Source of the DNA: Sneathiella limimaris
GTDB lineage: Bacteria; Pseudomonadota; Alphaproteobacteria; Sneathiellales; Sneathiellaceae
NCBI RefSeq assembly: GCF_012932565.1
Contig: NZ_JABBYJ010000002.1
Coordinates: 62,001 to 126,000, forward strand
DNA: 64,000 nucleotides
Direction of reading: 5' to 3'
Of the stretch, positions 24,917-49,869 are shown piece by piece. The translations under genes and the position numbers were made by a program. How positions within the stretch are numbered: position 1 is the first letter of the stretch; each line of letters starts with the position of its first letter. The notes below the pieces were generated by a model, which ran no database searches, was not told the DNA's origin, and saw only the letters and a program-made list of their open reading frames with translations.

Positions 24917-24930
24917 GGTTATTTTTTATC

Positions 24931-25431: not shown

Positions 25432-25441
25432 TCTACAGCTC

Positions 25442-26203: not shown

Positions 26204-26220
26204 TGATATGAACCCTTACC

Positions 26221-26520: not shown

Positions 26521-26535
26521 AATTTTTTCCTCAAC

Positions 26536-27498: not shown

Positions 27499-27543
27499 CT
27501 TTTCACCCAGTCTCCACACACTTTGCTTATCTATTATGCCTTT

Positions 27544-27584
27544 ATGATACATTATTTTTAGAAAATCAATACATTTTGTATCAT
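27544..27584. promoter_or_regulatory. Paired inverted repeat upstream of paaA, candidate operator
   Basis: ATGATACA (27544-27551) and its complement TGTATCAT (27577-27584), centres 33 bases apart (three helical turns), 46-86 bases upstream of the paaA start. A smaller ATACA-TTT-TGTAT palindrome overlaps the second arm. Possible site for a Paa repressor or for the neighbouring GntR protein. Confidence 0.45.
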
Positions 27585-27680
27585 TTATGACAGGGTGCAC
27601 TAAGCCCAATACTGCTTGAATATTTTTAGGAGCATAGTAAGAAGGTCAAAAGCACGCTGCTTTGCAATAAAGAATGAGGA

Positions 27681-32669: not shown

Positions 32670-32679
32670 CCTACTTGCC

Positions 32680-33744: not shown

Positions 33745-33770
33745 ACTTCAATTCTCCCAAGTTCCGGGCA

Positions 33771-33805
33771 CCCCAAAAAACCGCTTCACCATACTGGTTT
33801 TGGGG
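33771..33805. promoter_or_regulatory. Inverted repeat upstream of the YnjBCD-like operon
   Basis: CCCCAAAA (33771-33778) and TTTTGGGG (33798-33805), 19-base spacer, 27-61 bases before the ATPase start. Candidate operator or leader hairpin. Confidence 0.35.
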
Positions 33806-33837
33806 AAAATTACTGATCAAATAGATGTGAACATAAA

Positions 33838-33868
33838 AAAAACCGCATCGCAAGGCGATGCGGTTTTT
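33838..33868. terminator. Strong rho-independent terminator after phnY
   Basis: Perfect 14-bp stem AAAAACCGCATCGC / GCGATGCGGTTTTT with a 3-base loop, 20 bases beyond the phnY stop on the minus strand. Confidence 0.9.
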
Positions 33869-33887
33869 AAGATTTCGAGTGATCAAT

Positions 33888-35315
33888 TTACCAGGGCAAT
33901 GAGTAAGTTTTTACATTTGTGAAGCTTTTCATCGCTTCGAGAACACCTTCTTTATAGCCAAGGCCAGAATCCTTAATACCACCGAACGGAGACATCTCAA
34001 TTCGATAACCCGGAACTTCCCAAATATTTACCGTCCCAACATTCAATTCCTCAATAAATCGCTTTATATGAGGCCAGCTATCTGTACAAACACCAGATGA
34101 CAATCCAAATGCTGTTGAGTTTGAAATTCGGATGGCATCATCGATATCCTTAAAACGGATGACTGGTGCAACTGGTCCGAAAGTTTCCTCTTTTACAAGT
34201 TCGCAATCAAATGGCACGTGATCTACAACGGTCGGAGAATAAAGTGCCCCTTCCCGTTTGTTGCCTAGGATCAGCTTCGCTCCTTTGGAAACAGCGTCTT
34301 CAACTCGCGCCTCAAAGAGCTTGGCAGAGGCTTCATTAATGACCGTGCCCATATCAACTGATGGATCGAACGGATCACCATATTTCAACTTAGCAGTCTT
34401 TTCTGCCAACAACTCAACAAACCGATCAGCAACGCTGTCATCGACCAAGATCCGTTTAACAGCAGTACAACGTTGACCGGAATTTTTATAGGCACCGGCT
34501 ACCGCAAGATCTGTTGCCTTTTCAAGATCCGCATCTTTGAGGACGATAAGAGGATCATTACCTCCGAGCTCCAAAATTTTACGTTTATAGCCTGCTTTTT
34601 CCGCAATATATTTGCCAATAGGAACACCACCAGTGAAAGTCACCAACTCTGCGTGTTCATTGAGAAGCATTTCGTCAGCAATGTCCTCTGGTCGGCCAGT
34701 CACTACAGAAAACATTTCGGGAGGCAACCCTGCCTCATAAAGCACATCTGCTAAAAGCAAGGCAGTCAGTGGTGTTTTCTCAGTAGGCTTCAAGACCATG
34801 CAGTTATTTGTGGCAATAGAGGGGGCCACTTTATGCGCAACCTGGTTCAAAGGATGATTGAACGGTGTAATTGCACTAATAGCCTGAAGGGGTTCGCGCA
34901 AGGTGAAGATCTTTCGCTCCTTGCCATGCGGCGTGATATCACAAGAGAAAATCTCGCCGTCATCCATCATGCATAAGCGCGCAGAAAGGCTAAAAACATC
35001 GTAGGCACGACCAACCTCGTAAAGGCTGTCTTTTTTACAGAGACCAGCTTCTGCCGTTATGGTGTCCGAAATATCCTCTTTTCGTTCTACCAAAAGATCG
35101 GCAGTCTTTTGTAAAATGGCGTAGCGATCATGACGGGAAAGTGTGGACTTGTAGTCTGCTGCCTTTTGAAAGGCTGAGCGAACATGTTCAACCTGGCCTG
35201 CAGGAATTGAACCAATTTCTTCACCATTAAAAGGGTGAAAAACGCCAATATGTTCAGGCGTATCAACCTTTTCACCTGCGATGCGCATCTGCTCTTTTCG
35301 AAATGCAAATTTCAT
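33888..35315 (-). CDS. phnY: Phosphonoacetaldehyde dehydrogenase PhnY
   Basis: 475 aa. ALDH family; aligns over its length with Sinorhizobium PhnY as I remember it (EIFSCDLTPHGK-like [54 protein letters not shown], the catalytic Cys in [33 protein letters not shown]). It oxidises phosphonoacetaldehyde to phosphonoacetate with NAD. Co-transcribed 12 bases after phnA. An internal ATG (MRIAGEKV) is an alternative start. Confidence 0.95.
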
Positions 35316-35327
35316 AGTTGAGTATCC

Positions 35328-36566
35328 TTATTGCGCATAGTTTAGAGCCATATCGAATATATCGAAATTGCGAAGTCGGCGCCCATCATCTATTCCCTGA
35401 ACAGGTTTGTTGCACAACAGAGGAACACGCTGCTCTGAAACTCCACCGTGTGAGCGAAGTGGCTCTTTCAGCGCAGTGAGATCATGCTTACTAACGCTGG
35501 TGCCCAAAACTTTATTCGTTGTGGACACCAAAATCACGTCACCTGTTCGATCTTCCGGAAGTTCGAATTTCGCACAGCCTTCCGCACGGGAAAGGCTTTC
35601 TTCGATGCCATCCAGCGCCTTCAAACGCTCAATGATTTCTGAGCGATTTTCCTCTGGCAGGTAGGCTGTTGCAAAAGATCCGAGAGCGCCATGATGGACG
35701 ACATAAGGATCTGTGATCGGCAGGATAACCCGCGCTTTTCCATCCCCTAACCATTCATCCAAGACATCCTGCAGATATATGACATCCGGTTGGCCATCTT
35801 CTCCAAATTTTGGTTTCATACCATGATCGGCAGTCAATGCGATTACGGCACCACGTGCGTCCAACTCAGCCATGTATTTATCAAGCATCGCGTAGAATTC
35901 ATTTGCCACTGGCGTTCCAGGGGCATGCTTATGTTGAATATAGTCAGTGGTGGAGAGATACATGAGGTCTGGCTTAAACTCATCCATCAATTTAACGCCA
36001 CAGGCAAAGATGAACTCACTCAATTCTGCAGAATAAACTGATGGAACTTCCCGGCCGATCCAACTAGCCGCATCATCAATACCATTTTCTGCCATCGTCG
36101 CATCTGCAGATTTTTCCGAGGAAAAACAGATCGCCCGCCCGCTTGTCACGTCCAACCCATGGCCGAGCAATTTCCGGAGCTTATCCTTTGCTGTGACAAC
36201 GGCAATCTTCGCGCCTTCATCAAAAAAGGCTTTAAAAATAGTTGGGACCCGAAGGAATTTAGGGTCATTCATCATAACCTCTGCATCAGCATCAACATCG
36301 TAAAAGTAGTTACCACAAATTCCATGGACCTTGGGTGGCTGACCTGTAACGATGGACAGGTTATTGGGGTTGGTAAAGCTCGGCACCACACAATCAGCTC
36401 TTAGATCCGCGCCGTTTGCTAAAGCCTTCTCCATGTAAGGCATGACACCGTCTTTGATGGCCTGTTCAATATATGCGGGCTCACTACCATCGATGCAGAC
36501 CACGACAACCGGTTGCTTCGGCCAGGCATAGCTGCGTCCATTAACAGCGATTTCAGCTTTCGACAT
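35328..36566 (-). CDS. phnA: Phosphonoacetate hydrolase PhnA
   Basis: 412 aa, alkaline-phosphatase superfamily. Metal/nucleophile residues visible: Asp26 (VCIDGSEP), Thr65 nucleophile (PSFTNPNN), the pair in STTDYIQHKHAPG, TADHGMK and His in RSHGGVSEQ. It hydrolyses the C-P bond of phosphonoacetate to acetate and phosphate, the last step of the PhnW-PhnY-PhnA route. Promoter-proximal in phnA-phnY. Confidence 0.95.
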   Translation of the reverse strand: MSKAEIAVNGRSYAWPKQPVVVVCIDGSEPAYIEQAIKDGVMPYMEKALANGADLRADCVVPSFTNPNNLSIVTGQPPKVHGICGNYFYDVDADAEVMMNDPKFLRVPTIFKAFFDEGAKIAVVTAKDKLRKLLGHGLDVTSGRAICFSSEKSADATMAENGIDDAASWIGREVPSVYSAELSEFIFACGVKLMDEFKPDLMYLSTTDYIQHKHAPGTPVANEFYAMLDKYMAELDARGAVIALTADHGMKPKFGEDGQPDVIYLQDVLDEWLGDGKARVILPITDPYVVHHGALGSFATAYLPEENRSEIIERLKALDGIEESLSRAEGCAKFELPEDRTGDVILVSTTNKVLGTSVSKHDLTALKEPLRSHGGVSEQRVPLLCNKPVQGIDDGRRLRNFDIFDMALNYAQ

Positions 36567-36734: not shown

Positions 36735-37463
36735 TTAGGCGACACTTCCGACCAGATTAGCACCTCGAGAGGCCATAAAATATAGCCCCATATAATGGGT
36801 AACATCCTGTGGATGTGCTGCCTGATCCGGCAAACCAGCCTCACGCGCCACCTCTAACGGCAAATTAAAAGTGGAGCATCCCTTGTCATAGACATGAATG
36901 TTTTCAAGCCCCGGCATCATGTCATGATTTCTGGCACTCAGGCTGGTCAGCACAAAATCCATCACGCAAATATCAGTACAAATTCCGACCACAAGAATAT
37001 CAGTGAGTTGATGGGCTTTTACCCATTCGACAACAGCGTTTTCGCCTGTTTTGGCAATTGCACCAATAAATCCATTGATACAGTCTTTGCGCACTAGTGT
37101 GGTGTTGGAGTCTGTTTCTAGCCACTTCAATTCAGGCACTAATTCTTCTTCACCTGTGCCTGCCTCACAATGAGGTGGATAGGGTGGCTCAGGTTTTCCC
37201 GGAACGTGGGTATCCAAAAAGGCCAAAATAGGCCAACCTTGCTCAGTAAACTGCTTGGCTAGCCGATCTGTCTCGCTGACCATTGTGGAAACCTGCTCGT
37301 TAGGAACAGGCGGGGCCAAATTTCCAGCCCCAACCGTCGCAAAGCCATTCACTTCGTCAACAATGATCAAACCGACCCGCTTACAATCTTTTTCAAGATC
37401 CAGTTTGCCGATCGCAATTGGCATCGCCTCGGTAAGTGCTGTAGTAATCTGATCGGTTTGCAT
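36735..37463 (-). CDS. Isochorismatase-like hydrolase, nicotinamidase type
   Basis: 242 aa. Catalytic triad Asp36 (IIVDEVNGF), Lys126 (LVRKDC) and Cys166 (VGICTDICV). A nicotinamidase-like metal site is suggested by FLDTHVPG and YPPHCEAGTGE (Asp84, His86, His98). It hydrolyses an amide such as nicotinamide, an N-carbamoyl compound or a heterocyclic amide. It sits 26 bases after the binding-protein gene of a branched-chain-type importer, inside a hydantoinase/6-hydroxynicotinate-reductase locus. Confidence 0.85.
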   Translation of the reverse strand: MQTDQITTALTEAMPIAIGKLDLEKDCKRVGLIIVDEVNGFATVGAGNLAPPVPNEQVSTMVSETDRLAKQFTEQGWPILAFLDTHVPGKPEPPYPPHCEAGTGEEELVPELKWLETDSNTTLVRKDCINGFIGAIAKTGENAVVEWVKAHQLTDILVVGICTDICVMDFVLTSLSARNHDMMPGLENIHVYDKGCSTFNLPLEVAREAGLPDQAAHPQDVTHYMGLYFMASRGANLVGSVA

Positions 37464-37489
37464 CGCTAGTTCCCGTTATCTTCTATAAA

Positions 37490-38659
37490 TTAGCCACACT
37501 GCTTCGCAGGCTCAATCACTCCAAGTGCCTTTTCAACATTCAGAGTTCCGCCGCCCGTTTTACCAATATACATGTTCATGGCGACATGGTGATCGGCTTC
37601 CGTGATCATGGCTTTACCCGTTGGTATATCAAAGGTAAGACCCGCCATGCCGTCAATCAACGCTTCTTTATCAACCTTACCGGCTTTTTCAAGACCACCC
37701 TTAACTGCCATCAAGGAATTGTAATGGGTCATGACATAGAAGGATACTACAGCGTCATCACCCTCACGCTTGCGAATTTTGGAGACAAATTCCTGAACAC
37801 CTGGCTCTTCTGAATTGGCAACCATTGGAAGACCGGCATACATGCCCTCCCCTTTACCCACACCGAACGCGCCTAGATAGGTTTCTGCGAAACCGAGGAA
37901 GGCAACAGTTACTTTTTGCATCAAGCCAAATTCTTCAGCCTGCTTGATGAAGGTGATACCGTCAGCACCCGGCAACGCGAACAGTAGAATTTTTGCACCT
38001 GAGTCCGCAATTTTACGGATAACCGATGAAAAGTCCTTAACGCCAAACGGCGTATATTCTTCGCCCAAAGACGTTCCGCCAATTTGCTTGATCATGGCAT
38101 TGGCCGCCTTGAACATATTCCGTGGCCAGACATAATCTGCACCGAACATATAGTAGCTATCTCCAACACCCGCCTCTTTCAGATAAGGGATGAGAGGTGC
38201 CGTATCCTGGTTTGGAACTGTATTGAATGAGAATAGATATCTGTCACAAATACCGCCCTCATAGTTGGTGGCATATAAGAGCGGGGTTTTCATTCGTTTC
38301 ATGGTGCCAGCCATAGCATCGCGAGCAGCGGATGTAATCGGTCCAGAGACAGCTATTGCCTCATCCCGCTGAATGACTTTCCGAGCTCGCTCAACAGAAG
38401 TTTTGGGGTCTGTCTTGTTATCTTCATAGAGAACTTCTACCTGATGGCCCATAATCCCACCAGCGGCATTAATTTCAGAAGCGGCCAACTCCAATCCCAT
38501 TTGAGCCTGCTTACCAAATAGCTCAAGCCCGCCGGAAAATGGTTGCACGGCACCAATTTTAATCGTCTTTCCAGCCGCGATGGAAGGCATTGGAAAACCC
38601 GCGGCAGCCACTGCCGCAGAAGTTGTCAGGAGCAAATTTCTTCGTGAGATAAGTGTCAT
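37490..38659 (-). CDS. Branched-chain-type ABC importer substrate-binding protein
   Basis: 389 aa, Peripla_BP_6 type. Leader has a twin-arginine-like SRRNLLLTTSAAVAAAG, cleavage near SIAAG. Typical core: IKIGAVQPFSGGLELFGKQA, EINAAGGIMGHQVEVLYEDNK. This group binds amides, urea or amino acids. It is divergent from livGFHM-type genes that lack their own binding protein, so it is their partner. Confidence 0.88.
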   Translation of the reverse strand: MTLISRRNLLLTTSAAVAAAGFPMPSIAAGKTIKIGAVQPFSGGLELFGKQAQMGLELAASEINAAGGIMGHQVEVLYEDNKTDPKTSVERARKVIQRDEAIAVSGPITSAARDAMAGTMKRMKTPLLYATNYEGGICDRYLFSFNTVPNQDTAPLIPYLKEAGVGDSYYMFGADYVWPRNMFKAANAMIKQIGGTSLGEEYTPFGVKDFSSVIRKIADSGAKILLFALPGADGITFIKQAEEFGLMQKVTVAFLGFAETYLGAFGVGKGEGMYAGLPMVANSEEPGVQEFVSKIRKREGDDAVVSFYVMTHYNSLMAVKGGLEKAGKVDKEALIDGMAGLTFDIPTGKAMITEADHHVAMNMYIGKTGGGTLNVEKALGVIEPAKQCG

Positions 38660-38792
38660 GGCCAGTCCCCAAAATTATTCGTTTACAAACAATATTATTT
38701 CATAAAATATGAAAAATATCTAGAGTTCTATTGGGGTGTTTATGGCTCATTCGAATAATTCCGCAAGTATAGAAGGTTGTTTTTTAGCCATT

Positions 38793-38813
38793 TTTTTGAA
38801 TTTTGTTCAAAAA
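38793..38813. promoter_or_regulatory. Inverted repeat TTTTTGAA-N5-TTCAAAAA in the importer divergent promoter region
   Basis: 8-bp perfect arms around TTTTG, containing TGAATTTTGTTCA (T-N11-A). Centred in the 253-base gap between the binding-protein gene and livG, able to control both. Same core TTGAA-N5-TTCAA as upstream of phnA. Confidence 0.5.
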
Positions 38814-38912
38814 TTGAGCAAACTCTTTTGCACACCAACAAATAAGTTTATTTGAGTACTGACAAATAGAGACTGTTTTCTGTTTGTCTACTTATAGTAT
38901 CGGGAAAGAAGA

Positions 38913-39647
38913 ATGTCTTTTCTTGAAATAGAATCGCTCACGAAAAGATTCGGCGGAGTAACTGCCGTTGATAATTTCTCCCTATCCATTGAAGAAGGGA
39001 GCCTGACAGCTATCATCGGCCCCAATGGCTGTGGCAAGTCAACGCTGTTCAATCTGATTAGTGGAACTTTTTCTGCAGATAGCGGCCATATCATCCTTGA
39101 CGGAGTGAATATGACACCGCTGGGCGTTCAACAAATTGCCGATTTGGGAGTTGGGCGGAAATTCCAAGTGCCCTCAATCTTTCCAGATTTAACTGTCAGA
39201 CAGAATTTGCGATTACCAAGTTTAGCGCCACATCATTCCGAGTCTGATAGCCCCGGCAAGAAGTTAGAGGAAATCTTGGAACTGACAAACCTGTCCAATA
39301 AATTAGAGATCACCGCAAGCCATCTCTCACACGGGGAAAAGCAGTGGCTGGAAATTGGAATGGTCCTGATGCAATCGCCGAAACTTTTTCTATTGGATGA
39401 GCCAACTGCCGGAATGACTGTTGGGGAGACTGCTGCGACAGCTAATCTCATAAAGACGCTCACACATAAGCAGGACCTGACGGTTATCGTGATTGAGCAT
39501 GATATTGCCTTCATTGAAAAACTGGGGTGCCCCCTCACAGTTATGAGTAAAGGCCATGTTCTGAAATCCGGCCCCTTTGAAACTATTCGCAATGACCCAG
39601 AAGTTCAGGAACTCTATTTCGGAACAGGAGGTGGTCATGTTGCTTGA
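38913..39647 (+). CDS. livG: Branched-chain-type ABC importer ATPase (LivG type)
   Basis: 244 aa. Walker A GPNGCGKSTLFNLISG, LivG-typical GRKFQVPSIFPDLTVRQN, signature LSHGEKQWLEIGM, Walker B LFLLDEPTAGM. The signature and QVP segment recall the urea/amide-type UrtD subgroup. First gene of a plus-strand set of four. Confidence 0.9.
   Translation: MSFLEIESLTKRFGGVTAVDNFSLSIEEGSLTAIIGPNGCGKSTLFNLISGTFSADSGHIILDGVNMTPLGVQQIADLGVGRKFQVPSIFPDLTVRQNLRLPSLAPHHSESDSPGKKLEEILELTNLSNKLEITASHLSHGEKQWLEIGMVLMQSPKLFLLDEPTAGMTVGETAATANLIKTLTHKQDLTVIVIEHDIAFIEKLGCPLTVMSKGHVLKSGPFETIRNDPEVQELYFGTGGGHVA
39626..39631 (+). promoter_or_regulatory. Ribosome binding site that fixes the livF start
   Basis: AGGAGG with a 5-base spacer before ATG 39637. 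It decides against the longer open frame starting at 39577. Confidence 0.8.
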
Positions 39648-40341
39648 AACGCGGGATCTTATTTCAGGCTATGGAGAGGCTATAATCCTGAAAGGTCTTT
39701 CTACACAGATCGAAAAAGGCAAGATCACAGCGATCATGGGTCGAAATGGGATGGGCAAAACCACATTCGTCAAAACTGTTATGGGGTTATTACCAGTTTC
39801 AAGCGGTTCAATCTCTTTTCGAAACACTCAGTTGCATAAATTAAAAACCAACCAGATTGCAAAACTGGGAATTGGATATGTCCCACAAGGTAGAGAAGTT
39901 TTTGAGCAGTTCACCGTAGCAGAAAACTTACGTCTAGCCGCTTTAGGTTCCAGTCTTAATAATCTTGATATGCTGGACCAAATTTATAATTGGTTTCCAA
40001 TCCTGAAAGAGCGATTGCGCCAAAAAGCAGGAACTTTTTCCGGTGGCCAGCAACAGATCCTTGCAATCGCCCGCGCCCTGATCACTGATCCCGAAATTCT
40101 GTTATTGGATGAGCCATCCGAGGGGATCCAGCCAAGTATTGTTCATGAAATTGCAGAAACACTGAAAATGATTGCGACCGAAACTGGCCTTACCATTGTT
40201 ATGGTGGAGCAGAATCTGGATATGGTCAGAACCATGGCGGATGAAATACAGTTTATGGAAAATGGGGAAATTCAGAAGACCGTAAGCTCGGAAGTCTTCG
40301 CTTCCACTCCAGAACTGACCCATCGGTATTTGGGGATCTGA
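39637..40341 (+). CDS. livF: Branched-chain-type ABC importer ATPase (LivF type)
   Basis: 234 aa. Walker A GRNGMGKTTFVKTVMGL, GYVPQGREVFEQFTVAENL, signature FSGGQQQILAIARAL, Walker B ILLLDEPSEGIQP. The SEGIQP variant is usual for UrtE/FmdF-like members. Overlaps livG by 11 bases; livH follows after one base. Confidence 0.92.
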   Translation: MLLETRDLISGYGEAIILKGLSTQIEKGKITAIMGRNGMGKTTFVKTVMGLLPVSSGSISFRNTQLHKLKTNQIAKLGIGYVPQGREVFEQFTVAENLRLAALGSSLNNLDMLDQIYNWFPILKERLRQKAGTFSGGQQQILAIARALITDPEILLLDEPSEGIQPSIVHEIAETLKMIATETGLTIVMVEQNLDMVRTMADEIQFMENGEIQKTVSSEVFASTPELTHRYLGI

Positions 40342-40342
40342 T

Positions 40343-41200
40343 ATGGATATTCTTATTCCTCTCGTCGATGCGTCGTCTTACATCCTGATCCTCGTTCTTA
40401 TTGCGCTCGGGCTAATGATTATTTTTGGCATGATGGGCGTCATCAACATGGCACATGGTGAGCTCTTTATGTTGGGCGCTTATGTCATGGTCATGGCCCA
40501 AAGCCTGAGCCTCCCTTTCTGGCTTGGTATCGTACTGGCGCCTATAGTCGTTGGCGCCATTGGTCTTGTCATTGAGTACTGCCTAATTCGACATATTTAT
40601 CTGCGGCCGATAGATACAATCCTCGCCACTTGGGGCCTCTCAATTGCCTTAAAGCAGGCTATTGTTTTGCTTTTTGGGCCGGAAGCACAGAGTGTCGTAA
40701 CACCAATCAGCTCCACCCTGACGGTGGGTGAATTTAGCTATCCGCTATACCGTTTACTTGTTATGGGAATTTCACTGTTCCTTATCGGCGGAACATTCTG
40801 GCTGTTCCTGAAAACCGACTTCGGCCTCATGGCGAGAGCCGTAATTGCCCGCCCAGACACCGCAGCCACTCTTGGGATTAATACTCGGCGCATGTATCGA
40901 TGGAGCTTTGTTATAGGCACAGCGTTAGCAGGACTTGCGGGCGCACTTATCGCACCCACCATCAGTGTTGACCCTCAAATGGGTCTTGGATATCTCGTTC
41001 CAGGCTTTCTCTCCATCTTGGTGGGCGGTGCCGGTCCACTAGCAGGGGTTTTGGTCGGCGGCACTGCCGTTGGCGGAACGAATAGCTTACTGACAGTTTG
41101 GATTTCGCCAGTTGCCGCTCAAATAGCTGTTTTTATACTGGCCATCCTCATCATACGCCTCCGACCCGAAGGAATTTTGGGAGGACGCCGTGAGAAATAA
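40343..41200 (+). CDS. livH: Branched-chain-type ABC importer permease (LivH type)
   Basis: 285 aa, about eight TM helices. LivH signatures: FGMMGVINMAHGELFMLGAYV and LAGLAGALIAPTISVDPQMG, then PGFLSILVGGAGPLAG. Inner-membrane channel half. Overlaps livM by 11 bases. Confidence 0.92.
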   Translation: MDILIPLVDASSYILILVLIALGLMIIFGMMGVINMAHGELFMLGAYVMVMAQSLSLPFWLGIVLAPIVVGAIGLVIEYCLIRHIYLRPIDTILATWGLSIALKQAIVLLFGPEAQSVVTPISSTLTVGEFSYPLYRLLVMGISLFLIGGTFWLFLKTDFGLMARAVIARPDTAATLGINTRRMYRWSFVIGTALAGLAGALIAPTISVDPQMGLGYLVPGFLSILVGGAGPLAGVLVGGTAVGGTNSLLTVWISPVAAQIAVFILAILIIRLRPEGILGGRREK

Positions 41201-42158
41201 TCTTCCGACCCTCATTGTCTTCGTAGCGATGGGGCTCCTGCCGCTTGTTACTTCCGACTATTGGACAAGTCAGCTCAACTATTACTTAATATACGGGCTA
41301 TTTGCCATGTCCCTATCGCTAACCTGGGGATATGGAGGCATCCTATGCCTGGGACAAGCAATTTTCTTCGGGATCGGAGCCTATGTCATGGCGGTTACCA
41401 CCAAAGGGATGCTGGATCCCATACCCACCAGTTTTTACCTGGGGCTTCTCCTTGCCATGATGGCAGGCGCGGCATTTGCTGCACTGCTCGGCTATTTCCT
41501 TTTTGCTGGCAGAGGCATCCACGGGGCCTATCTCGCGATCATAACACTTGCCATTGCAATGGTACTGGAACGGTTGATGAGCAATTGGTATGAGCTGGGA
41601 GGCTACAACGGACTACTGGATATACCGCCTATCAATCTTGCCCTATTTGGCGATCCAATAGATATATGGGACCCTCTACCGACCTTCTATATTCTATGGG
41701 GCATTGTTTTTACGATTGCATTATGGCTGAGCTGGCTAACTCAGTCTGATGTTGGTTTGAAACTCATTGCCCTCAGAACAAATCCCGACCGACTGCCTTA
41801 TTTTGGATTTCGCCCCCTCACCATCAGGCTACAGGTTTTTTGCCTAAGCGCTGCAATAGCTGCACTTGCTGGGGCACTTTTTGTCACGATAGACGGGTTT
41901 GCCTCCCCCACGTTAATCGGATTTGGTCTTTCCACTGAGGTCCTAATCTGGGTTGCCATAGGTGGGAAAGAAGTCTTGATTGCTGCCTTTCTCGGGGCTG
42001 TCCTGACGCGCCTCACCGAAAGCTGGCTATCGGAAATCTTTGGAGATTACTGGATACTGATCCTTGGAACCCTTTTTATGATCAGTGTCGTTCTTCTGCC
42101 CAAGGGATTAATCGCAAGCCTAATCGACTGGCTCCAAAAACCCCGTAAATCAACTTAA
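41190..42158 (+). CDS. livM: Branched-chain-type ABC importer permease (LivM type)
   Basis: 322 aa starting at GTG 41190. LivM signatures: YYLIYGLFAMSLSLTWGYGGILCLGQAIFF-like region, GRGIHGAYLAIITLA, and the C-terminal ALAGALFVTIDGFASP. Ends in a 4-base convergent overlap (TTAA) with hyuB. Confidence 0.92.
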   Translation: MRNNLPTLIVFVAMGLLPLVTSDYWTSQLNYYLIYGLFAMSLSLTWGYGGILCLGQAIFFGIGAYVMAVTTKGMLDPIPTSFYLGLLLAMMAGAAFAALLGYFLFAGRGIHGAYLAIITLAIAMVLERLMSNWYELGGYNGLLDIPPINLALFGDPIDIWDPLPTFYILWGIVFTIALWLSWLTQSDVGLKLIALRTNPDRLPYFGFRPLTIRLQVFCLSAAIAALAGALFVTIDGFASPTLIGFGLSTEVLIWVAIGGKEVLIAAFLGAVLTRLTESWLSEIFGDYWILILGTLFMISVVLLPKGLIASLIDWLQKPRKST

Positions 42159-43885
42159 GGCTCAGCTCTTAAAGCGGCGGTTGCACCCTCATCGACTTTT
42201 CCCGTTTGAGGATCCAGCGCGACCCTGAATAGGTCAAGAGCCTGTTTCGGCGTGTAATAACCCTGATCCACATCCTCAGCCACTTTGGCTGGGTTTCTAG
42301 CATAGGGATTTCCGTAGCCACCGCCACCTGGCGTCGAGATAAATATTTTATCGCCTGCAGAAATCCGGATGTTTTGATCTTTGGATAAATGAGGCGGAAT
42401 ATAATCTTCATCACCAGCGTGAACCCGAACTTTGTTGGTTCCGCCGTCTTTGCCGCCGAGTGCTCCCTTAGGACCGTATCGACCGTGGTCCATCACCATG
42501 GATGCTCTCGCCTCTCCCCTCTTCAAGGACAAAGTGTAATTAATCCCGAAACCACCCCTAAATTCGCCGGCACCGCCGGAGCCTTCGTGCAAGGAATATT
42601 CTTCAAACAAAACCGGATAATATTGCTCCATAACTTCGATTGGCGTTGTCTTGGAAATCCCGATGGTTGAGCAACCGTTCGTCAATCCATCGCTATCCAA
42701 ATAACCGCCATAACCACCGCCGGAGATGACATACATGACGTAGGACTTATCTTTTTCCGTATCATACCCCCCAACCGCTAGGTTACCAGAGGTTCCGGCT
42801 GGCGCAGCAAACAATTCTGTTGGCATAACGTCCACGAGAGCATTGAAAACGGCTTCCGCAATTCGTTGGCTAACTTCGGCAGCACACCCAGAAACTGGTC
42901 TTGGATATTTTGCATATAAGAACGTTCCGTCTGGATCATGAACGATCAATGGGGCAAACGTCCCGGAATTAATGGGGATATCTGGAAAAATATGTTTTAC
43001 TGCCAGATAAATAGATGATTTTGTTGTTGCTAGAACCGAATTCATTGGCCCCATACAAGGCGGACTTGAACGGGAGAGATCAAAGATCATCTCTTCACCC
43101 TTCACTTCAATATCGAGATTTATCTCGAGCGGCGCATCCACAACGCCATCAGAGTCGACAAAAGATTGCCCTTGATATTGACCATCAGGGATCTGCCGAA
43201 TTTTAGCACGCATCTGTTCTTCGGCACGGTCTTTCAATTCTGCGATCGATTGGCGGACAGTTTCCTCACCGTATTTATCAAGAAGCGCGGTGAGCCTATC
43301 TTCTCCAACTTTCAGTGCCGCAGCCTGAGCTTTGATATCACCGATCCGTTGATCTGAAATCCGGATATTGGAAAGGATGATGGAGAGAATTTCAGGATCC
43401 AATTCCCCTTCTTTGAACAGCTTCACCGGGGGAAGGCGAAGTCCCTCCTGTTCAACCTCTGTCGCGTTTGCAGAAAACCCACCCGGCACGGATCCACCGA
43501 GATCCGGCCAATGCCCCGTATTGGCAAGCCATGACCAAAGTTTACCGTTGTAATAAAAGGGCTTCACGAACTTGACATCCATCAGATGCGTACCCCCAAG
43601 ATAGGGATCATTGACGATATAGATATCGCCAGGGCGCACATTCTTCGCCCTCTCGATGACGGCCTGGGTTGAAAACTGCATGGTGCCAACAAATACGGGT
43701 AATCCCAGCTCCCCCTGCGCAATCAATTCCCCTGTCTCAGCACCATAAATTCCATCTGATCGATCCAGCGCCTCTGATATGACCGGGCTAAAAGCAGCCC
43801 GAACAAAAGCAAGATCCATTTCATTGCACACCTGGATTAATCCGTTTTGGATAACGGACAAGGTAATTGGATCAATTTGCGTCAT
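42155..43885 (-). CDS. hyuB: Hydantoinase B / oxoprolinase family protein (HyuB)
   Basis: 576 aa. Typical HyuB: LSVIQNGLIQVCNEMDLAFVRAAFSP, VNDPYLGGTHLMDVKFVKP, HEGSGGAGEFRGGFG and the C-terminal STPGGGGYGNP. With HyuA it forms an ATP-dependent enzyme that opens cyclic amides (hydantoin, 5-oxoproline) or carboxylates ketones. Overlaps hyuA by 14 bases, so the two are coupled. Substrate inferred from neighbours only. Confidence 0.92.
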   Translation of the reverse strand: MTQIDPITLSVIQNGLIQVCNEMDLAFVRAAFSPVISEALDRSDGIYGAETGELIAQGELGLPVFVGTMQFSTQAVIERAKNVRPGDIYIVNDPYLGGTHLMDVKFVKPFYYNGKLWSWLANTGHWPDLGGSVPGGFSANATEVEQEGLRLPPVKLFKEGELDPEILSIILSNIRISDQRIGDIKAQAAALKVGEDRLTALLDKYGEETVRQSIAELKDRAEEQMRAKIRQIPDGQYQGQSFVDSDGVVDAPLEINLDIEVKGEEMIFDLSRSSPPCMGPMNSVLATTKSSIYLAVKHIFPDIPINSGTFAPLIVHDPDGTFLYAKYPRPVSGCAAEVSQRIAEAVFNALVDVMPTELFAAPAGTSGNLAVGGYDTEKDKSYVMYVISGGGYGGYLDSDGLTNGCSTIGISKTTPIEVMEQYYPVLFEEYSLHEGSGGAGEFRGGFGINYTLSLKRGEARASMVMDHGRYGPKGALGGKDGGTNKVRVHAGDEDYIPPHLSKDQNIRISAGDKIFISTPGGGGYGNPYARNPAKVAEDVDQGYYTPKQALDLFRVALDPQTGKVDEGATAALRAEP

Positions 43886-45920
43886 TAGTCACCTCCACCA
43901 CCAGGTTTCCAATTTCATCTGCTGTCACGCGCCATCCCGGTTCAATCACGATTGTTGTATCCAGCTGATTGATAATTGCAGGCCCTGAAAACTCCAAGTC
44001 TTCGGGAAGTAGATTACGAGAATATATAGGCGTCTCCAGCCATTCCCCCGCAAAATAAACCGGCCGAACCCCCACTTGAGCGTCGATCAAGTTTGATCGA
44101 GCCTCATCAGATTTTAAGGAATGGAATGAAATTCCTTCTCTCTTTCCAATGATGGCCGTGTGAACGTTTACCAAAACGGCCCTGATTTCCGGTAATTCCA
44201 CTCCGAAACGGGACCAATAAACCTCATCAAATCGCTTTTGCAGCTCTTCAATTGTCACCTCTGGTCCACTAATACTAACGGGCAGCATATGGCTCTGCCC
44301 CTGAAACTGCATATCCGCTGTAAAAATCAAATTGATCTCACTCACTGGAATATTATCCCGCTTGATCATTTCGTGACCGGCCTCAATCTGCCCCTGAATA
44401 ACGGACCGAACCTCTTCTTGATCCAACGTTGCAAGTGGCTTGTTGATCGTATTTACAAAATCATGGCGAAGGTCAGAAACCACACAACCAAGCGCGTTTG
44501 TAATGCCAGGGCGAACCGGTAATAAAAGCTTTGGAATACCGAGCTCTCTTGCAAGCGCACCACCGTGAAGTGGCCCGGCGCCGCCAAACGCAAAAAGCGC
44601 AAAATCTCTGGGGTCATGCCCTCGGGACAAGCTAACCATTCGGATGGCGCCTGCCATTTTGTCATTTGCAATCCGAATAATGGCCTCCGCCACCTCAATG
44701 GCAGTCAACCCAAGACGGTTACCAATTTTTTCTTTGAATATATTTTCCAGGCTTTCACGGGAGACGGTACCATCCACGGACAGAAGCGCATCTGGATCCA
44801 AACGGCCAAGAAGAAGATTTGCATCCGTAATTGTCGGCAACGCACCCCCACGACCATAACAAATTGGACCCGGCATCGCGCCAGCACTTTGGGGGCCGAC
44901 CTCTAATAGTCCGGCTTCATTTATCCATGCAATAGAACCACCACCAGCTCCAATCGTATGAACATCCACCATTGGTACATGCAGAGGCATGCCATATTCC
45001 AGATCCAGCTCAGAGGTCACTTGAGGAACACCTTCCTGAACAATTCCAACATCTGAACTGGTTCCACCCATATCGTAGGTGATAACACCGGCCACTCCCG
45101 CGGCACGCGCCGTAGCAGCAGCAGCCATCACACCTGATGCCGGACCAGACATGACTGTATTTACAGCACTTTCAGCAACTATGGGGGCCGCCACGCTACC
45201 TCCATTTCCTTGCATCACCAAGAGATCATGCTGAAAGCCAGAGCTTGTCAGTTCAGTTTGCAAGCGAGAAATATACCGGTCTAAAACAGGTTGGATCGCC
45301 GCATTAATAGAAGCCGTCGTTCCCCGTTCATACTCTCGGTATTCCGACAGGATCTGGTGCCCGGCGGTGATGTAATTATTGTGCCAATGCTGCTTGGCAA
45401 TTTCCAAAGCCCGCTGTTCATGCGAAGAGTTTTTATAGGAATGTAGGAAATGGATGACCAGGCTTTCCACGCCGGCATCCTTCAGTTGAGTAAGAGCATC
45501 CAAAAACCCCTCCTCATCCAAAGGAATGACAACATTTCCATCAGCATCCATCCTTTCAGCAACTTCCAGACGGAGTTTTCGGGGAATAAGGGGAGAAAAG
45601 CTTCCCTTCAAACCATATGGTTTTGGACGGGTTCGACGCCCCAGTTCAAGAACGTCGCGGAAACCTTTTGTCGTTATCAAACCAACTTTGGCGATTTTTC
45701 GTTCCAGCAGCGCATTGGTTGTTGTAGTCGTGCCGTGGTTAATAGCGGCCACAGTTGTCAAATCAACCTTTGCACTTTCAAGGGCTGAGAGCACACCAAA
45801 AGCCTGATTATCAACAGTTGTTGGCACCTTGGCGATCTCCAGTGCACCCGAAATAGGGTCCACAGAAATCAAATCCGTAAAAGTACCCCCAACATCAACG
45901 CCGATAAGTTTCCCCGTCAT
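43872..45920 (-). CDS. hyuA: Hydantoinase A / oxoprolinase family protein (HyuA)
   Basis: 682 aa. ASKHA-fold ATPase: GVDVGGTFTDLISVD and NHGTTTTTNALLERK (N-terminal phosphate-binding), TYDMGGTSSDVGIV, FAFGGAGPLHGGALARELG. It provides ATP-driven activation for HyuB. Acetone/acetophenone carboxylase subunits share the fold, but no third carboxylase subunit is here, which favours lactam/hydantoin hydrolysis. Confidence 0.92.
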   Translation of the reverse strand: MTGKLIGVDVGGTFTDLISVDPISGALEIAKVPTTVDNQAFGVLSALESAKVDLTTVAAINHGTTTTTNALLERKIAKVGLITTKGFRDVLELGRRTRPKPYGLKGSFSPLIPRKLRLEVAERMDADGNVVIPLDEEGFLDALTQLKDAGVESLVIHFLHSYKNSSHEQRALEIAKQHWHNNYITAGHQILSEYREYERGTTASINAAIQPVLDRYISRLQTELTSSGFQHDLLVMQGNGGSVAAPIVAESAVNTVMSGPASGVMAAAATARAAGVAGVITYDMGGTSSDVGIVQEGVPQVTSELDLEYGMPLHVPMVDVHTIGAGGGSIAWINEAGLLEVGPQSAGAMPGPICYGRGGALPTITDANLLLGRLDPDALLSVDGTVSRESLENIFKEKIGNRLGLTAIEVAEAIIRIANDKMAGAIRMVSLSRGHDPRDFALFAFGGAGPLHGGALARELGIPKLLLPVRPGITNALGCVVSDLRHDFVNTINKPLATLDQEEVRSVIQGQIEAGHEMIKRDNIPVSEINLIFTADMQFQGQSHMLPVSISGPEVTIEELQKRFDEVYWSRFGVELPEIRAVLVNVHTAIIGKREGISFHSLKSDEARSNLIDAQVGVRPVYFAGEWLETPIYSRNLLPEDLEFSGPAIINQLDTTIVIEPGWRVTADEIGNLVVEVTNDAN

Positions 45921-45955
45921 ACTGCCCCCACATTACGCGACTTAAACTAGTTGGC

Positions 45956-46543
45956 TTATCTTAAGCCATTGAACTCTGAAATATCCTCTGCGGCTAGGCC
46001 GCCAAGCCGGGCATGAACACGGCCACCTGTTGCCATGACCAGCGCAAATAGAATTTCCCCGCGACGCGGTGCATCCCCTATCCCCACTTCCAAAGCATCA
46101 AAATGACTTCGAACATAGGAGGCATCTTTATGGGTCAGCGGAATATCAAGACGACCACCGACATGAGAGACTTTCTTGCTGGAAGGCACTATGGCATGAG
46201 CAGTTCCAAGGGCTTCGCGCATGGCATAGCCACCCGCAACATGCCATGTAGCGCCATGTTCCATTTCACCGTCTTCCCCAACAATGGCACCTTTGCCATA
46301 ACTGCAAATCTTCGTTGCATCCCCGCCCAAGGCATCAATCAAACGATTTGCAAGCTTAAGCCCCAACGGCTTTAAGGCATCCATGAAAGGCGTAATATCT
46401 TCCACATATTTTCCAGCGTACGGGTTTTCGACAACGGCCGAAATCGAGCCTTTTAAAATCGGTGCTTCTAAAACTGGACCACCTTCATGCCAGACCTCTT
46501 CAACTTCGGTAATAATTTTGCGTACCTTTACCAGATCACTCAT
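45956..46543 (-). CDS. AA_synth (DUF1185) family protein
   Basis: 195 aa. Matches the small 'amino acid synthesis' family: KGSISAVVENPYAGKYVEDI, ICSYGKGAIVGEDGEMEHG, GATWHVAGGYAMREALG. The biochemical role is unknown. The family is often found with hydantoinase, UPF0280 and 6-hydroxynicotinate-reductase-like genes. Overlaps the UPF0280 gene by 4 bases (ATGA). Confidence 0.85.
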   Translation of the reverse strand: MSDLVKVRKIITEVEEVWHEGGPVLEAPILKGSISAVVENPYAGKYVEDITPFMDALKPLGLKLANRLIDALGGDATKICSYGKGAIVGEDGEMEHGATWHVAGGYAMREALGTAHAIVPSSKKVSHVGGRLDIPLTHKDASYVRSHFDALEVGIGDAPRRGEILFALVMATGGRVHARLGGLAAEDISEFNGLR

Positions 46544-47409
46544 GCCACTCTCTCCCTTATTATTGTTCGCTGTTGTGAGAATTGCCGAACCTCACCCTTT
46601 AGGGATATGTATACCCCGCCGATTAATCCAGCAGACTGAAACAGTTTGGCCGTCTTTTCACCTTCCGACAATGCTTTGTTTATTTCTCGGTCAGTCAGTT
46701 CCCCGACATCAGTTGTAACCAACCGATCCCCAAGATCACTATCAGGATCCAACTCAAAGACTGGGGTCTGTTTGATGGCGCTGCTCTTAACAAAAACGTC
46801 CCCCGCAATCAGGGTCGCAGCCACGTCAGCCAAGACGGCATTAGATGCCAACACAGTCACAGCGTCAGCAATACCAGAGGAAAAAGATCTTCCTTGCCAT
46901 CCGGAGGTTGCAATTCCACCAATCTGATCTGTAGCTTTAATATGAACTGTGCCATTCCAACTTGGATCATCATGATTATTAACGATGGCAGCTTTAAACT
47001 CCTGATCCGGTTTTAAATAAACAGCAATATCTCCACCGTTATTCACATAGGCTTTCTCAATACCTTTTATGGCACTTATCTTCCTCAGAACGGCATCTGC
47101 GATGGCACCAGCCACACCTGCCATGGGCGTCACATAATGATAATCTGAAAACAGATTAGCCGCCTCAATCATTCGCTTTGAAATTGGGCTCCTAATGGAA
47201 ACTGGAACAATTGGTGCTGGCTGTCTTAACGTTGCTAGATCTGCCACTAATCCCTCTAAAACCGTTTCAAAAAACCGGGAGACTTCGTTATATGCAGCTG
47301 CAACAGCTTCTGGCGTTCCCCAGGCTTCACAGATCAGATCAGACGGACCATGCTGTAAATGCAGCCGCTTTCCATCTTTCATCAACCGAGCTATTGCAGG
47401 CGCATACAT
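46540..47409 (-). CDS. UPF0280 family protein (ApbE-like fold)
   Basis: 289 aa. VTPMAGVAGAIADAVL and AYVNNGGDIAVYL are the family signatures and resemble the ApbE flavin-transferase fold. Function unproven; neighbours encode an FAD-binding subunit and an Fe-S reductase-like protein, so a flavin-related role in maturing them is an inference. Starts 3 bases after the reductase-like gene's stop. Confidence 0.85.
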   Translation of the reverse strand: MYAPAIARLMKDGKRLHLQHGPSDLICEAWGTPEAVAAAYNEVSRFFETVLEGLVADLATLRQPAPIVPVSIRSPISKRMIEAANLFSDYHYVTPMAGVAGAIADAVLRKISAIKGIEKAYVNNGGDIAVYLKPDQEFKAAIVNNHDDPSWNGTVHIKATDQIGGIATSGWQGRSFSSGIADAVTVLASNAVLADVAATLIAGDVFVKSSAIKQTPVFELDPDSDLGDRLVTTDVGELTDREINKALSEGEKTAKLFQSAGLIGGVYISLKGEVRQFSQQRTIIRERVA

Positions 47410-47412
47410 CGT

Positions 47413-48822
47413 TCAAGTCTCACGCTTCTCAAGTCTGCCGGCTTCTCGGCTCAGGACTTCATCAACCGTTACGATCCGGTTCGAATACCCCCCTAAAGCT
47501 TGAAAATTCAGCTTGGTCATTGTGAATTCGATGGGGGCGACAATGGCCGGGGTCGGTACATAGCCAAATGAGTTCTCAGGCATTTTCAAGACATCCACCA
47601 TGAAGGTTATTCCGCCGCCCGGCCAAATAAATGTCTCAGCCCCACCGCAAGTGACATTCGTCAAATGATCTTTCACTGATCTGGTCAATCGAACCGGGTT
47701 CTCGGTGACCCCAGCCCTGAGTGACCCACCTGCGCCGGCCATAAACAACACAGAACAAAGCGCTGGCTCACAGTTCTCAGCAATCCTCTCAACGGCCAGA
47801 GAAATTTCCTCAGGCATCTCTTGTTGAACAGGATTCAAATTTTCATCAAGGACAAACCAAGCACTATCTTGGCCCGTTGTTGAAACCATGAGTAATCGCA
47901 TACCTGGAAAGGCTTTGTCCGGTTCAATCCGATCGATAATATCAAGCGGATTGGTTACATTCGTCCCGCCCCACCCTGCACCGTGGTCAGCAACCTGAAA
48001 ATACCGACCAGGTGTGGAACGACGGCCACGAACCCGAATGCCAGAAACCGGCATTTCTAAAAACTGCCCTGCCTGATGCTCACTCAAAACACCGGTGATA
48101 TGGTCATCGACAACGATCACCTCATCTACCTTTCCATGCCATTGGGGGGCAAAAATCCCGATCGTAGCAGACCCGCAGCCAACCCTCATCCGCTCTTCAC
48201 GGGTACCATCAATTACAGGTGGCTCTCCAGCTTGGACAACAAGCTCCGCTCCTCCCTCAACAGTGAGCTCCACTGCCTCCCGGTTACAAAGGCTGAGAAG
48301 CGTATCGCAGGTGATACGCCCCTCTTTCTTCGATCCCCCGGTTAGATGGCGCACCCCGCCAATAGACAGCATCTGACTGCCATATTCAGCTGTTGTGACA
48401 TGACCTACCTGCTCTCCCTTCGCATAAACGGGAGCTGTTTCCGGCCCCACATACCGGTCGGTATCGATCTTGACTTTAGCGCCGCAATAACTGAATACCC
48501 CCTCAGATACGACAGTCACTGTATCCGCACCATTAATCTCGGCACCGACAATAAATGGGGCAGGTTTATAATCTGGATAGGTTGTACCAGAGCCGACACC
48601 CGTTACCATGATAGACGATGCCAGCAATTCACCGTCCCACTGATCTGGAGACTCTGGAAGCGGCACAGCTGCGCCACCACGCTCCATCACGACAAGCGGA
48701 TCCAATCGTGTCAATTTGCCTTCAATATTCCCATAACGATCACAGGCTCCACTTTTGCCTTTGCGAATGCGACAAAGAACGGGGCAGGCATCGCAGCGAA
48801 CAATTTCCTGATCATCAAGGAT
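47413..48822 (-). CDS. 6-hydroxynicotinate reductase-like Fe-S protein (start unresolved)
   Basis: The body (TYPDYKPAPFIVGAE, SEGVFSYCGAKVKIDTDRY, GGVRHLTGGSKKEGRITCD, VGCGSATIGIFAPQWHG, RRSTPGRYFQVA) matches proteins annotated as 6-hydroxynicotinate reductase. A start at TTG 48714 gives 433 aa but loses the family N-terminus. Reading the DNA upstream in frame shows VRCDACPVLCRIRKGKSG then ACDRYGN, a C-X2-C-X3-C-X9-C motif (codons 48742-48795) that suggests an Fe-S cluster. The frame is open to a stop at 48859-48861 with no ATG, GTG, TTG or CTG. I give ATC 48822 as a provisional boundary. Homologues would reduce an N-heteroaromatic ring. Confidence 0.75.
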   Translation of the reverse strand: MLDDQEIVRCDACPVLCRIRKGKSGACDRYGNIEGKLTRLDPLVVMERGGAAVPLPESPDQWDGELLASSIMVTGVGSGTTYPDYKPAPFIVGAEINGADTVTVVSEGVFSYCGAKVKIDTDRYVGPETAPVYAKGEQVGHVTTAEYGSQMLSIGGVRHLTGGSKKEGRITCDTLLSLCNREAVELTVEGGAELVVQAGEPPVIDGTREERMRVGCGSATIGIFAPQWHGKVDEVIVVDDHITGVLSEHQAGQFLEMPVSGIRVRGRRSTPGRYFQVADHGAGWGGTNVTNPLDIIDRIEPDKAFPGMRLLMVSTTGQDSAWFVLDENLNPVQQEMPEEISLAVERIAENCEPALCSVLFMAGAGGSLRAGVTENPVRLTRSVKDHLTNVTCGGAETFIWPGGGITFMVDVLKMPENSFGYVPTPAIVAPIEFTMTKLNFQALGGYSNRIVTVDEVLSREAGRLEKRET

Positions 48823-49649
48823 CCCGACAACAGTCTTTTCACCAGTATCTGGGCTGCCTCAATGCGATATTCTGCAGACGCACGAACATCATCTATCGGG
48901 TGAAGCTCATTGAAGTGGTGATCCTCAACTTTTTGTGCAAGATCAGAAGTCAGCTGATTTCCGAGTAAAGATTGCTCCAGTTTGTGGAGACGAGTGGCAA
49001 CCGGGGAGCATGCACCCAGGCAGATGCGAATATCTGTAATTGTTCCATCAGATGTCCAACCTACGACGCCAGAAACCATGACAAGCGAGATGACCAAATA
49101 TTTGCGAGAACCCAGTTTTAAAAATGAACTGGATAGATTTTCAGATTTAATTTCTGGGATCCAAATTCCCTTTAAAAGTTCGTTGGCGGCCAACGCGGTT
49201 TTCCGATTGCCCAAAACAAAATCTTTTAAAGGAAGTTTCCGCTCACTGTTAGGGCCAATAATTTTAACCTCAGCATCTAGAGCAATAAGCGCCGCTACAC
49301 CATCTGCAGCAGGGGATGCATTGCAAATATTTCCGCCGACGGTTCCACTGTTTTGAATCTGGATACCCCCAACCTCTCTTGCCGCACTTTTCAGTCCATC
49401 AAATAAGGTTGGCAGATTGGTGCGAACAACATCTGTCCACGTGGTTGTAGCCCCTATCAACCATCCGTTATTCTGCTTTGAGATGCCTCTGAGACTCTCA
49501 AGGGCCGTAAGATCTAGAATATTATCGTCGAGATTAAGATTAACTTTGGCCGGATAATAATCCGTGCCCCCCGCAAGGACTTTCCATCCGCCTTTTGACA
49601 AGACGGACAAAGCATTTTCAAGCTCCGTTGGCCGAATATAGTCCCCCAT
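48711..49649 (-). CDS. FAD-binding subunit of a molybdenum-hydroxylase type (CoxM/XDH-B like)
   Basis: About 312 aa from ATG 49649, which has AAAGGGA upstream; the frame is open further but unlike the family. FAD motifs: KVLAGGTDYYPAKV and GGIQIQNSGTVGGNICN, then ASPAADG. The C-terminal CO_deh_flav_C domain ends near DNA position 48830 (RIEAAQILVKRLLSG). The last 35 or so codons overlap the Cys-motif coding region of the next gene in another frame and look non-native. No Mo-subunit or 2Fe-2S subunit is present, unusual for this family. Confidence 0.8.
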   Translation of the reverse strand: MGDYIRPTELENALSVLSKGGWKVLAGGTDYYPAKVNLNLDDNILDLTALESLRGISKQNNGWLIGATTTWTDVVRTNLPTLFDGLKSAAREVGGIQIQNSGTVGGNICNASPAADGVAALIALDAEVKIIGPNSERKLPLKDFVLGNRKTALAANELLKGIWIPEIKSENLSSSFLKLGSRKYLVISLVMVSGVVGWTSDGTITDIRICLGACSPVATRLHKLEQSLLGNQLTSDLAQKVEDHHFNELHPIDDVRASAEYRIEAAQILVKRLLSGSLMIRKLFAAMPAPFFVAFAKAKVEPVIVMGILKAN

Positions 49650-49869
49650 GCTCAGTCCCTTTATATGTACACAAACAATGATGCGATAATTTAGAAACAA
49701 GTCAAGTCTAACTTTAAAAGGCAAACTTAATTGAAACCCAATTTTTCTATACGAAAGATAATCAACTTGGCATCCATCTTTCGCAGCAGTAGTTTGGTTC
49801 GAATGAAATACCAGAATGACTTAAGAACGTTAATTAAGCCATTCAAAAAACGATGATTTTACTAATAAG

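Follow-up and report, generated by a model that had tools for sequence, protein, structure and literature searches.

Within a 64,000-nucleotide stretch of the Sneathiella limimaris genome (contig NZ_JABBYJ010000002.1, positions 62,001 to 126,000; hereafter the window), an operon on the minus strand at 49724–42155 probably represents a HyuAB-type version of the reductive pathway of nicotinate degradation, which is broken in this genome. Open reading frames (ORFs) and Pfam and NCBIfam matches directly show its gene content and order: the flavin adenine dinucleotide (FAD) subunit of a hydroxylase, a 6-hydroxynicotinate-reductase-like frame, UPF0280, PF06684 (AA_synth), HyuA, and HyuB. A second unit downstream comprises an amidase and a binding protein on the minus strand, followed by two ATP-binding cassette (ABC) ATPases and two permeases on the plus strand. 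An earlier note on this DNA, made from the sequence, had listed an importer, a nicotinamidase-like amidase, HyuA, HyuB, PF06684, UPF0280, a reductase-like Fe-S protein and an FAD subunit; the amidase, the binding protein, two ATPases, two permeases, HyuB, HyuA, PF06684, UPF0280 and an FAD_binding_5 subunit are indeed present where it placed them. Its proposal of N-heterocycle catabolism with reductive dearomatisation and ATP-dependent lactam opening by HyuAB was right in outline, and HyuA replaces enamidase genome by genome. The description of the system as undescribed does not hold, because excerpts of an earlier study (PMC3511419) assign this cluster type in Azorhizobium and Bradyrhizobiaceae to the degradation of nicotinate via 1,4,5,6-tetrahydro-6-oxonicotinate (THON).

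In the intact relatives, the FAD subunit together with a fused 2Fe-2S/molybdenum hydroxylase would convert nicotinate to 6-hydroxynicotinate. The iron-sulphur reductase, presumably made a covalent flavoprotein by UPF0280, would reduce this product to THON, and HyuAB would then open the THON lactam with ATP instead of enamidase. PF06684 might, as a guess, handle the ring-opened enamine or 2-formyl-dicarboxylate en route to glutarate; in Eubacterium barkeri, another bacterium with the reductive pathway, formylglutarate is reduced. For E. barkeri, excerpts of PMC9304392 describe a bifunctional enamidase that opens THON hydrolytically and deaminates it.

The FAD subunit of the lost hydroxylase (48711–49724, minus strand; PF00941 (FAD_binding_5), E = 6e-39; PF03450, E = 2.3e-16) has its homologous start at about 49649. 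The matches to the FAD and reductase genes lie ~2.8–2.9 kb apart in 10 of 10 related loci (six congeners and four others; the 3.5 kb listed for L026 results from a split reductase frame, of which the reductase row is short). A tblastn search with the hydroxylase gene of related locus L017, which is a single gene of 917 codons, found 2Fe-2S and molybdenum parts in every one of these gaps, L017 itself counted. In the window, comparison with L017, L020 and L022 revealed a junction (48805–48835, minus strand) at which the reductase's N-terminal codons directly follow the last FAD codons and the hydroxylase gene between them is absent; past ~48815 the FAD frame continues into the reductase region in another reading frame. 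Thus, of the FAD, 2Fe-2S and molybdenum subunits of a xanthine-dehydrogenase-family set the window retains the FAD subunit alone, and the nicotinate hydroxylase gene expected of a THON-pathway cluster, present in all 10 relatives, was not found in the window. Relocation of this gene was rejected, as a search of the S. limimaris genome with the fused gene gave distant paralogues only (26% over the molybdenum part, 24–46% for shorter pieces) and a search with NicB gave no close copy (27–30% over the molybdenum part, 39% for a cytochrome piece). In the genus, genome G014 (L146:832–4435) carries the FAD gene (293 codons) and the fused hydroxylase (915 codons), both intact, without reductase, UPF0280, PF06684 or HyuAB, and in G023 (L155) the hydroxylase is seen as far as the contig end, with the rest of the block absent up to there. 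Both retain the half of the block opposite to that of the window.

A scan of named genomes yielded at least 582 reductase relatives, and the locus counts use the best 80 of them; near relatives therefore weigh more, and many loci are cut by contig ends. The record titles of these 80 loci are nearly all Proteobacteria. Of these loci, 79 contained UPF0280, 77 a molybdenum-hydroxylase gene regardless of identity, 56 PF06684, 54 the FAD gene, 24 HyuA and 11 HyuB; none contained the amidase. Additional recurring genes encode a MarR regulator, enamidase, and a ferredoxin-NADP reductase-like protein. Together with 15 plasmid loci, the 10 relatives and the window, the 80 named loci constitute the set of 106 loci used below. 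Of 240 genomes sampled evenly from the class, 37 hold the reductase and the identical 37 hold UPF0280, which is not due to chance (the Fisher values ignore kinship).

HyuA, the ATPase subunit (43872–45920, minus strand; PF01968/PF05378/PF19278), has an N-methylhydantoinase as its nearest Protein Data Bank chain (7hk5, E = 1.4e-132), and HyuB (42155–43885, minus strand; PF02538, E = 1.8e-160) is the ATP-dependent hydantoinase/lactamase subunit; all four domains lie in these adjacent genes. The amidohydrolase found in other loci was identified as enamidase (2vun, E = 1.7e-110). The 106 loci showed HyuA in 41, enamidase in 29, both in none, and neither in view in 36. HyuA was paired with the fused hydroxylase in 34 loci, with a NicB-like hydroxylase in four and with no hydroxylase in view in three, and enamidase with the fused kind in 14 and the NicB-like kind in 15, so that all four combinations of hydroxylase and opener exist. 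On the reductase tree, which was built by a quick method (38 of 103 inner branches starred, 28 open), the openers switch at least nine times among 70 labelled loci and the hydroxylase type at least five times. The replacement was also observed in whole genomes, independent of linkage: the 37 reductase genomes comprised 23 with the HyuA orthologue, 13 with enamidase, none with both, and one with neither (G248, 70% complete). Enamidase was not found at E ≤ 1e-90 in the S. limimaris genome, where HyuAB stands instead. The cut of 55% identity for HyuA orthologues was fixed once the loci had been viewed and ahead of the test on whole genomes, in which HyuA matches fell at ≥59% or ≤54%. HyuA matches below 55% (the second L124 copy and the L129 copy) and enamidase-like proteins of 41–43% (G083, G224) were not counted. 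From this exclusive replacement we infer an ATP-driven opening of the THON lactam by HyuAB where enamidase would otherwise act, and this substitution looks to be new. No account of HyuAB substituting for enamidase was found in the searches made of open-licence papers, and no paper listed there combined tetrahydro-6-oxonicotinate or enamidase with hydantoinase. A mandelate-racemase-like gene follows HyuA in five Reyranella-type loci.

The C-terminal half of the L017 hydroxylase is most similar to the medium subunit of nicotinate dehydrogenase (3hrd_B, 236.7 bits; runner-up structure 157.0 bits). With the whole L017 gene, Fe-S part included, aldehyde oxidoreductase is the top match (417.7 bits), and the nicotinate dehydrogenase molybdenum subunits, which are separate chains, reach 275.8 and 233.7 bits. 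The L017 alignment keeps Tyr13 of the medium subunit, modelled in excerpts of PMC5746545 as binding the pyridine ring nitrogen; the corresponding stretch was found in 53 of 79 scanned loci, with Tyr in all 53, and was not found in 26. This relatedness to nicotinate dehydrogenase suggests that the product of the lost gene converted nicotinate to 6-hydroxynicotinate. A NicB-like hydroxylase with cytochrome c domains replaces the fused kind, counted only at ≥45% identity, in 21 of the 106 labelled loci. The Bradyrhizobium loci possess a hydroxylase with cytochrome c domains resembling the annotated nicotinate dehydrogenase NicA/NicB of other records.

The reductase-like frame (47413–48858, minus strand) is open over 481 codons. 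It was named after homologues annotated as 6-hydroxynicotinate reductase, and no Pfam or NCBIfam family scored above its cut-off. The motif CDACPVLCRIRKGKSGACDRY sits in this open frame, and no ATG, GTG or TTG codon precedes it; the TTG at 48714, which the ORF tool had picked as start, comes only after the motif. In-frame ATC and ATT codons are candidates for a rare start. The N-terminal four-Cys motif CDACPVLCRIRKGKSGAC (48742–48795, minus strand) contains four Cys that are invariant in 41 aligned proteins, and the frame retains all eight invariant Cys of this alignment. The structure model of the reductase (mean pLDDT 74; pLDDT, predicted local distance difference test) had no Foldseek match at E ≤ 1e-3, and no site of flavin attachment could be chosen on the protein. 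A likeness to the C-terminal part of the glycine-cleavage T-protein (best Z 4.8 over 65 residues, weak GCV_T_C matches in 33 of the 41 proteins) was discarded as too weak. Since the hydroxylase gene and the reductase start codon are gone, the window copy would be unable to begin from nicotinate, and it may make no full-length reductase. Genes of 2-oxoacid:ferredoxin oxidoreductases, a likely source of reduced ferredoxin, adjoin the block in L035, L037, L042 and L067, which fits a reductase fed by ferredoxin; other loci carry a ferredoxin-NADP reductase-like gene.

The UPF0280 protein (46540–47409, minus strand; NF003322, 323.8 bits, cut-off 290) yielded a model with a pLDDT of 93 and the ApbE fold over the whole chain. 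ApbE/Ftp flavin transferases matched this model with Z scores of 14.4–17.3 (19 entries; next group 8.2), and the superpositions span 202–220 residues with root-mean-square deviations of 3.0–3.7. The top structural match was 2o34 (Z 20.5), an uncharacterised UPF0280 relative (DVU1097), and Foldseek agreed on the likeness to ApbE (E = 1.4e-5 and weaker). N-x-G-G-D, T-S-G and A-D-x-x-A-T are invariant in an alignment of 31 UPF0280 proteins, seven of which match the ApbE family PF02424 at E ≤ 0.01; we take N-x-G-G-D and A-D-x-x-A-T to be ApbE motifs. Based on the co-occurrence with the reductase, the ApbE-like model and the covalent flavin that the E. barkeri reductase is reported to carry, UPF0280 probably attaches flavin to the reductase and is thus its likely flavin transferase. 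Among 14 control genomes only that of Methanosarcina acetivorans gave a UPF0280 match, under the cut-off, and relatives of UPF0280 may have another job in methanogens. A search of open-licence papers gave none on UPF0280.

PF06684 (45956–46543, minus strand; E = 2.9e-69), also known as AA_synth or DUF1185, is a family with a chorismate-mutase-like fold, and the fold of two members has been given (PMC2954203). In the genome sample it was present in 33 of the 37 reductase genomes, in 15 of the 203 others, and in 14 of 14 enamidase genomes. The 15 reductase-free genomes provided 16 stretches, of which two (L130, L131) have enamidase-like neighbours of 40–43%, and in several others, with neighbours partly scanned, PF06684 adjoins a luciferase-like monooxygenase, an alpha/beta hydrolase or an aldehyde dehydrogenase. 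Such neighbourhoods in L132, L134, L141 and L143 resemble clusters for trigonelline degradation. According to excerpts of PMC7913881, TgnF of trigonelline degradation is a homologue, and a PF06684 protein in the breakdown of 7-hydroxycoumarin was tested with no effect. Judging by the features that nicotinate and trigonelline degradation share, our guess is that PF06684 might act on 2-formyl-dicarboxylates or their enamines, a role not evidently compatible with the coumarin result.

The second unit consists of a nicotinamidase-like amidase of the isochorismatase fold (36735–37463, minus strand; PF00857, E = 1.8e-19), a UrtA/Liv-type binding protein (37490–38659, minus strand; Peripla_BP_6, E = 2.7e-82; TIGR03407, 205 bits against a cut-off of 493), two ABC ATPases (38913–39647 and 39577–40341, plus strand; ORFs with conserved order in congeners, the true start of the second probably near 39637), a UrtB-like permease (40343–41200, plus strand; TIGR03409, 236 bits against 250) and a UrtC-like permease (41190–42158, plus strand; TIGR03408, 206 bits against 296), the end of which runs tail to tail into HyuB. 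The amidase scored 22.2 against 174 for NF008623. Its alignment with PncA (3pl1, residues 86–169) takes in the stretches with His..PPHC, Lys and Cys and not the N-terminal Asp, residues to which catalytic and metal-binding roles are assigned in PncA. Within the genus, 23 of 24 genomes have the amidase, reductase-free ones included, and in nine of ten fetched reductase-free congeners it is found together with the binding protein, ATPases and permeases; the exception is L147 (G022), in which the amidase lies beside ung and the importer is absent. In all seven congeners without the hydroxylase and with both ends in view, permease and ung are 67–167 bases apart, which indicates that the whole catabolic block is inserted between these two as one unit. 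Importer and amidase are therefore a unit separate from the catabolic block and, contrary to the earlier note, no dedicated importer, although they may supply nicotinate.

Three other explanations of the window can be weighed. The earlier note regarded the FAD and Fe-S proteins as a two-part reductase, in agreement with their abutting genes. However, the hydroxylase gene separates these genes in 10 of 10 relatives, and the FAD protein bears xanthine-dehydrogenase-family domains and is not found in NicB-like hydroxylase loci. The gene order of the relatives contradicts such a pair, and we attach practically no weight to it. Fe-S and FAD genes are adjacent because the hydroxylase gene between them is missing, and the earlier reading overlooked the molybdenum-hydroxylase first step because this gene is gone. 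The apparent pair is probably a product of deletion, and an error of the assembly that conceals a whole operon is less likely; we consider it improbable, if worth keeping in mind. Such an error would agree with the ordinary divergence of the reductase and FAD genes (at columns that do not otherwise vary in the congeners they have 7 and 5 unique changes, compared with 1–10 and 1–6 in the others) and with the availability of one strain without a second for comparison. Against it stand a genome of three contigs rated 100% complete, the presence of distant paralogues only elsewhere in this genome, and other partial states in the genus, such as hydroxylase only in G014. It is still less probable, and in our view a poor prospect, that the remnant uses 6-hydroxynicotinate from other bacteria, with G014-like congeners as its makers and a reductase starting at ATT or ATC. 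The intact frame with all eight invariant Cys and the complementary hydroxylase-only state of G014 (and of G023 up to the contig end) favor this idea, whereas the reductase is without an ordinary start codon, nothing points to export or exchange of 6-hydroxynicotinate, and unique changes are somewhat raised in HyuB (23; others 2–8, omitting L022 with its split gene) and UPF0280 (13; others 1–5).

HyuAB-type operons could also use the same kinds of enzyme to degrade another pyridine, such as trigonelline, a carboxylate isomer, or a hydroxy- or methylnicotinate; HyuAB would then be tied to that substrate and not to a different choice of enzyme. A gene annotated as an aromatic ring-hydroxylating dioxygenase lies beside the block in some roseobacter loci, as an N-demethylase would, and PF06684 is found in luciferase-like monooxygenase clusters, too, which look similar to the trigonelline path. 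However, HyuAB is also found beside NicA/NicB-type nicotinate hydroxylases (L118, L124, L126, L127), the openers swap at least nine times on a single reductase tree, and the dioxygenase gene co-occurs with enamidase too (L116, L129), so that we regard a different substrate as unlikely. The annotation in the roseobacter loci (L116, L117, L123, L129) is that of a dioxygenase alpha subunit, which might demethylate trigonelline to nicotinate.

Several observations weigh against a HyuAB-type nicotinate pathway, broken in this genome, as we propose it. Some of the 36 loci with neither opener in view have full flanks, and among the reductase-free genomes three have HyuA above 55% and one has enamidase. 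The genome searches scored at most four (HyuA) or seven (enamidase) candidates per genome, and a copy of either could thus have been overlooked. In the Reyranella-type loci (L053, L046, L063, L083) HyuB is not beside HyuA; a HyuB orthologue of 75–77% occurs in three of the four such genomes queried and none in the fourth. PF06684 is absent from four of the 37 reductase genomes, all of the HyuA type. UPF0280 stays under the Pfam gathering score of ApbE (PF02424; 23.2 against 25.6 bits). Finally, no decay is visible in the reductase and FAD genes of the window, which would be odd if the operon were dead; either the deletion may be recent or, again, the assembly may be in error.

Farther from the operon, the window contains an ABC importer, an aldehyde dehydrogenase and a phosphodiesterase-family protein resembling phosphonoacetate hydrolase (29603–36566); matches to the last three genes of this region adjoin the amidase in G014 and G023 (L146, L155) too. 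Phenylacetyl-CoA epoxidase subunit-like genes and their reductase, judged by eye, are located at 23837–27609.

These results assign a likely pathway to a set of genes met in at least 582 stretches of one scan, and predict an ATP-consuming lactamase able to stand in for enamidase. The damage to the window copy could by itself make this strain fail in growth tests. A broader proposal holds that a second, ATP-driven opening of THON is often exchanged with enamidase, that UPF0280 is a dedicated flavin transferase of the reductase, and that PF06684 processes formylglutarate here and formylsuccinate in Tgn-like clusters, or enamines. We advance this combination tentatively and deem it more doubtful than not; if it is true, UPF0280 and PF06684, two families without a function, would gain one each. 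Both orphan families become directly testable.

Judging from the excerpts of PMC3511419, the closest known systems are the nicotinate cluster of Azorhizobium caulinodans and Bradyrhizobium and the fermentation by E. barkeri, with which the window shares the reductase, UPF0280, PF06684, an ABC importer and the THON chemistry. The window reductase is 66–68% identical to those of the Bradyrhizobium loci. In contrast to the Azorhizobium/Bradyrhizobium cluster, the window has HyuAB for enamidase, and its type has the FAD subunit and the fused 2Fe-2S/molybdenum hydroxylase (absent in the window itself) where that cluster has a NicB-like hydroxylase with cytochrome c domains. N-methylhydantoinase and caprolactamase (HyuAB, CapAB) belong to the same HyuA and HyuB families, and the nearest NCBIfam models are those of caprolactamase; however, the window HyuAB proteins, with 506 and 346 bits, fall well short of the 1000 bits required for caprolactamase and form an orthologue group of their own that is linked to the reductase. 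The ApbE/Ftp flavin mononucleotide transferases share their fold with UPF0280 over its whole length, whereas UPF0280 is under the Pfam cut-off for ApbE and has 2o34 as its nearest solved relative. In the trigonelline (Tgn) pathway the ring is opened by a luciferase-like monooxygenase and not by reduction and hydrolysis. A PF06684 member is nevertheless common to the Tgn cluster and the window (TgnF, in excerpts of PMC7913881).

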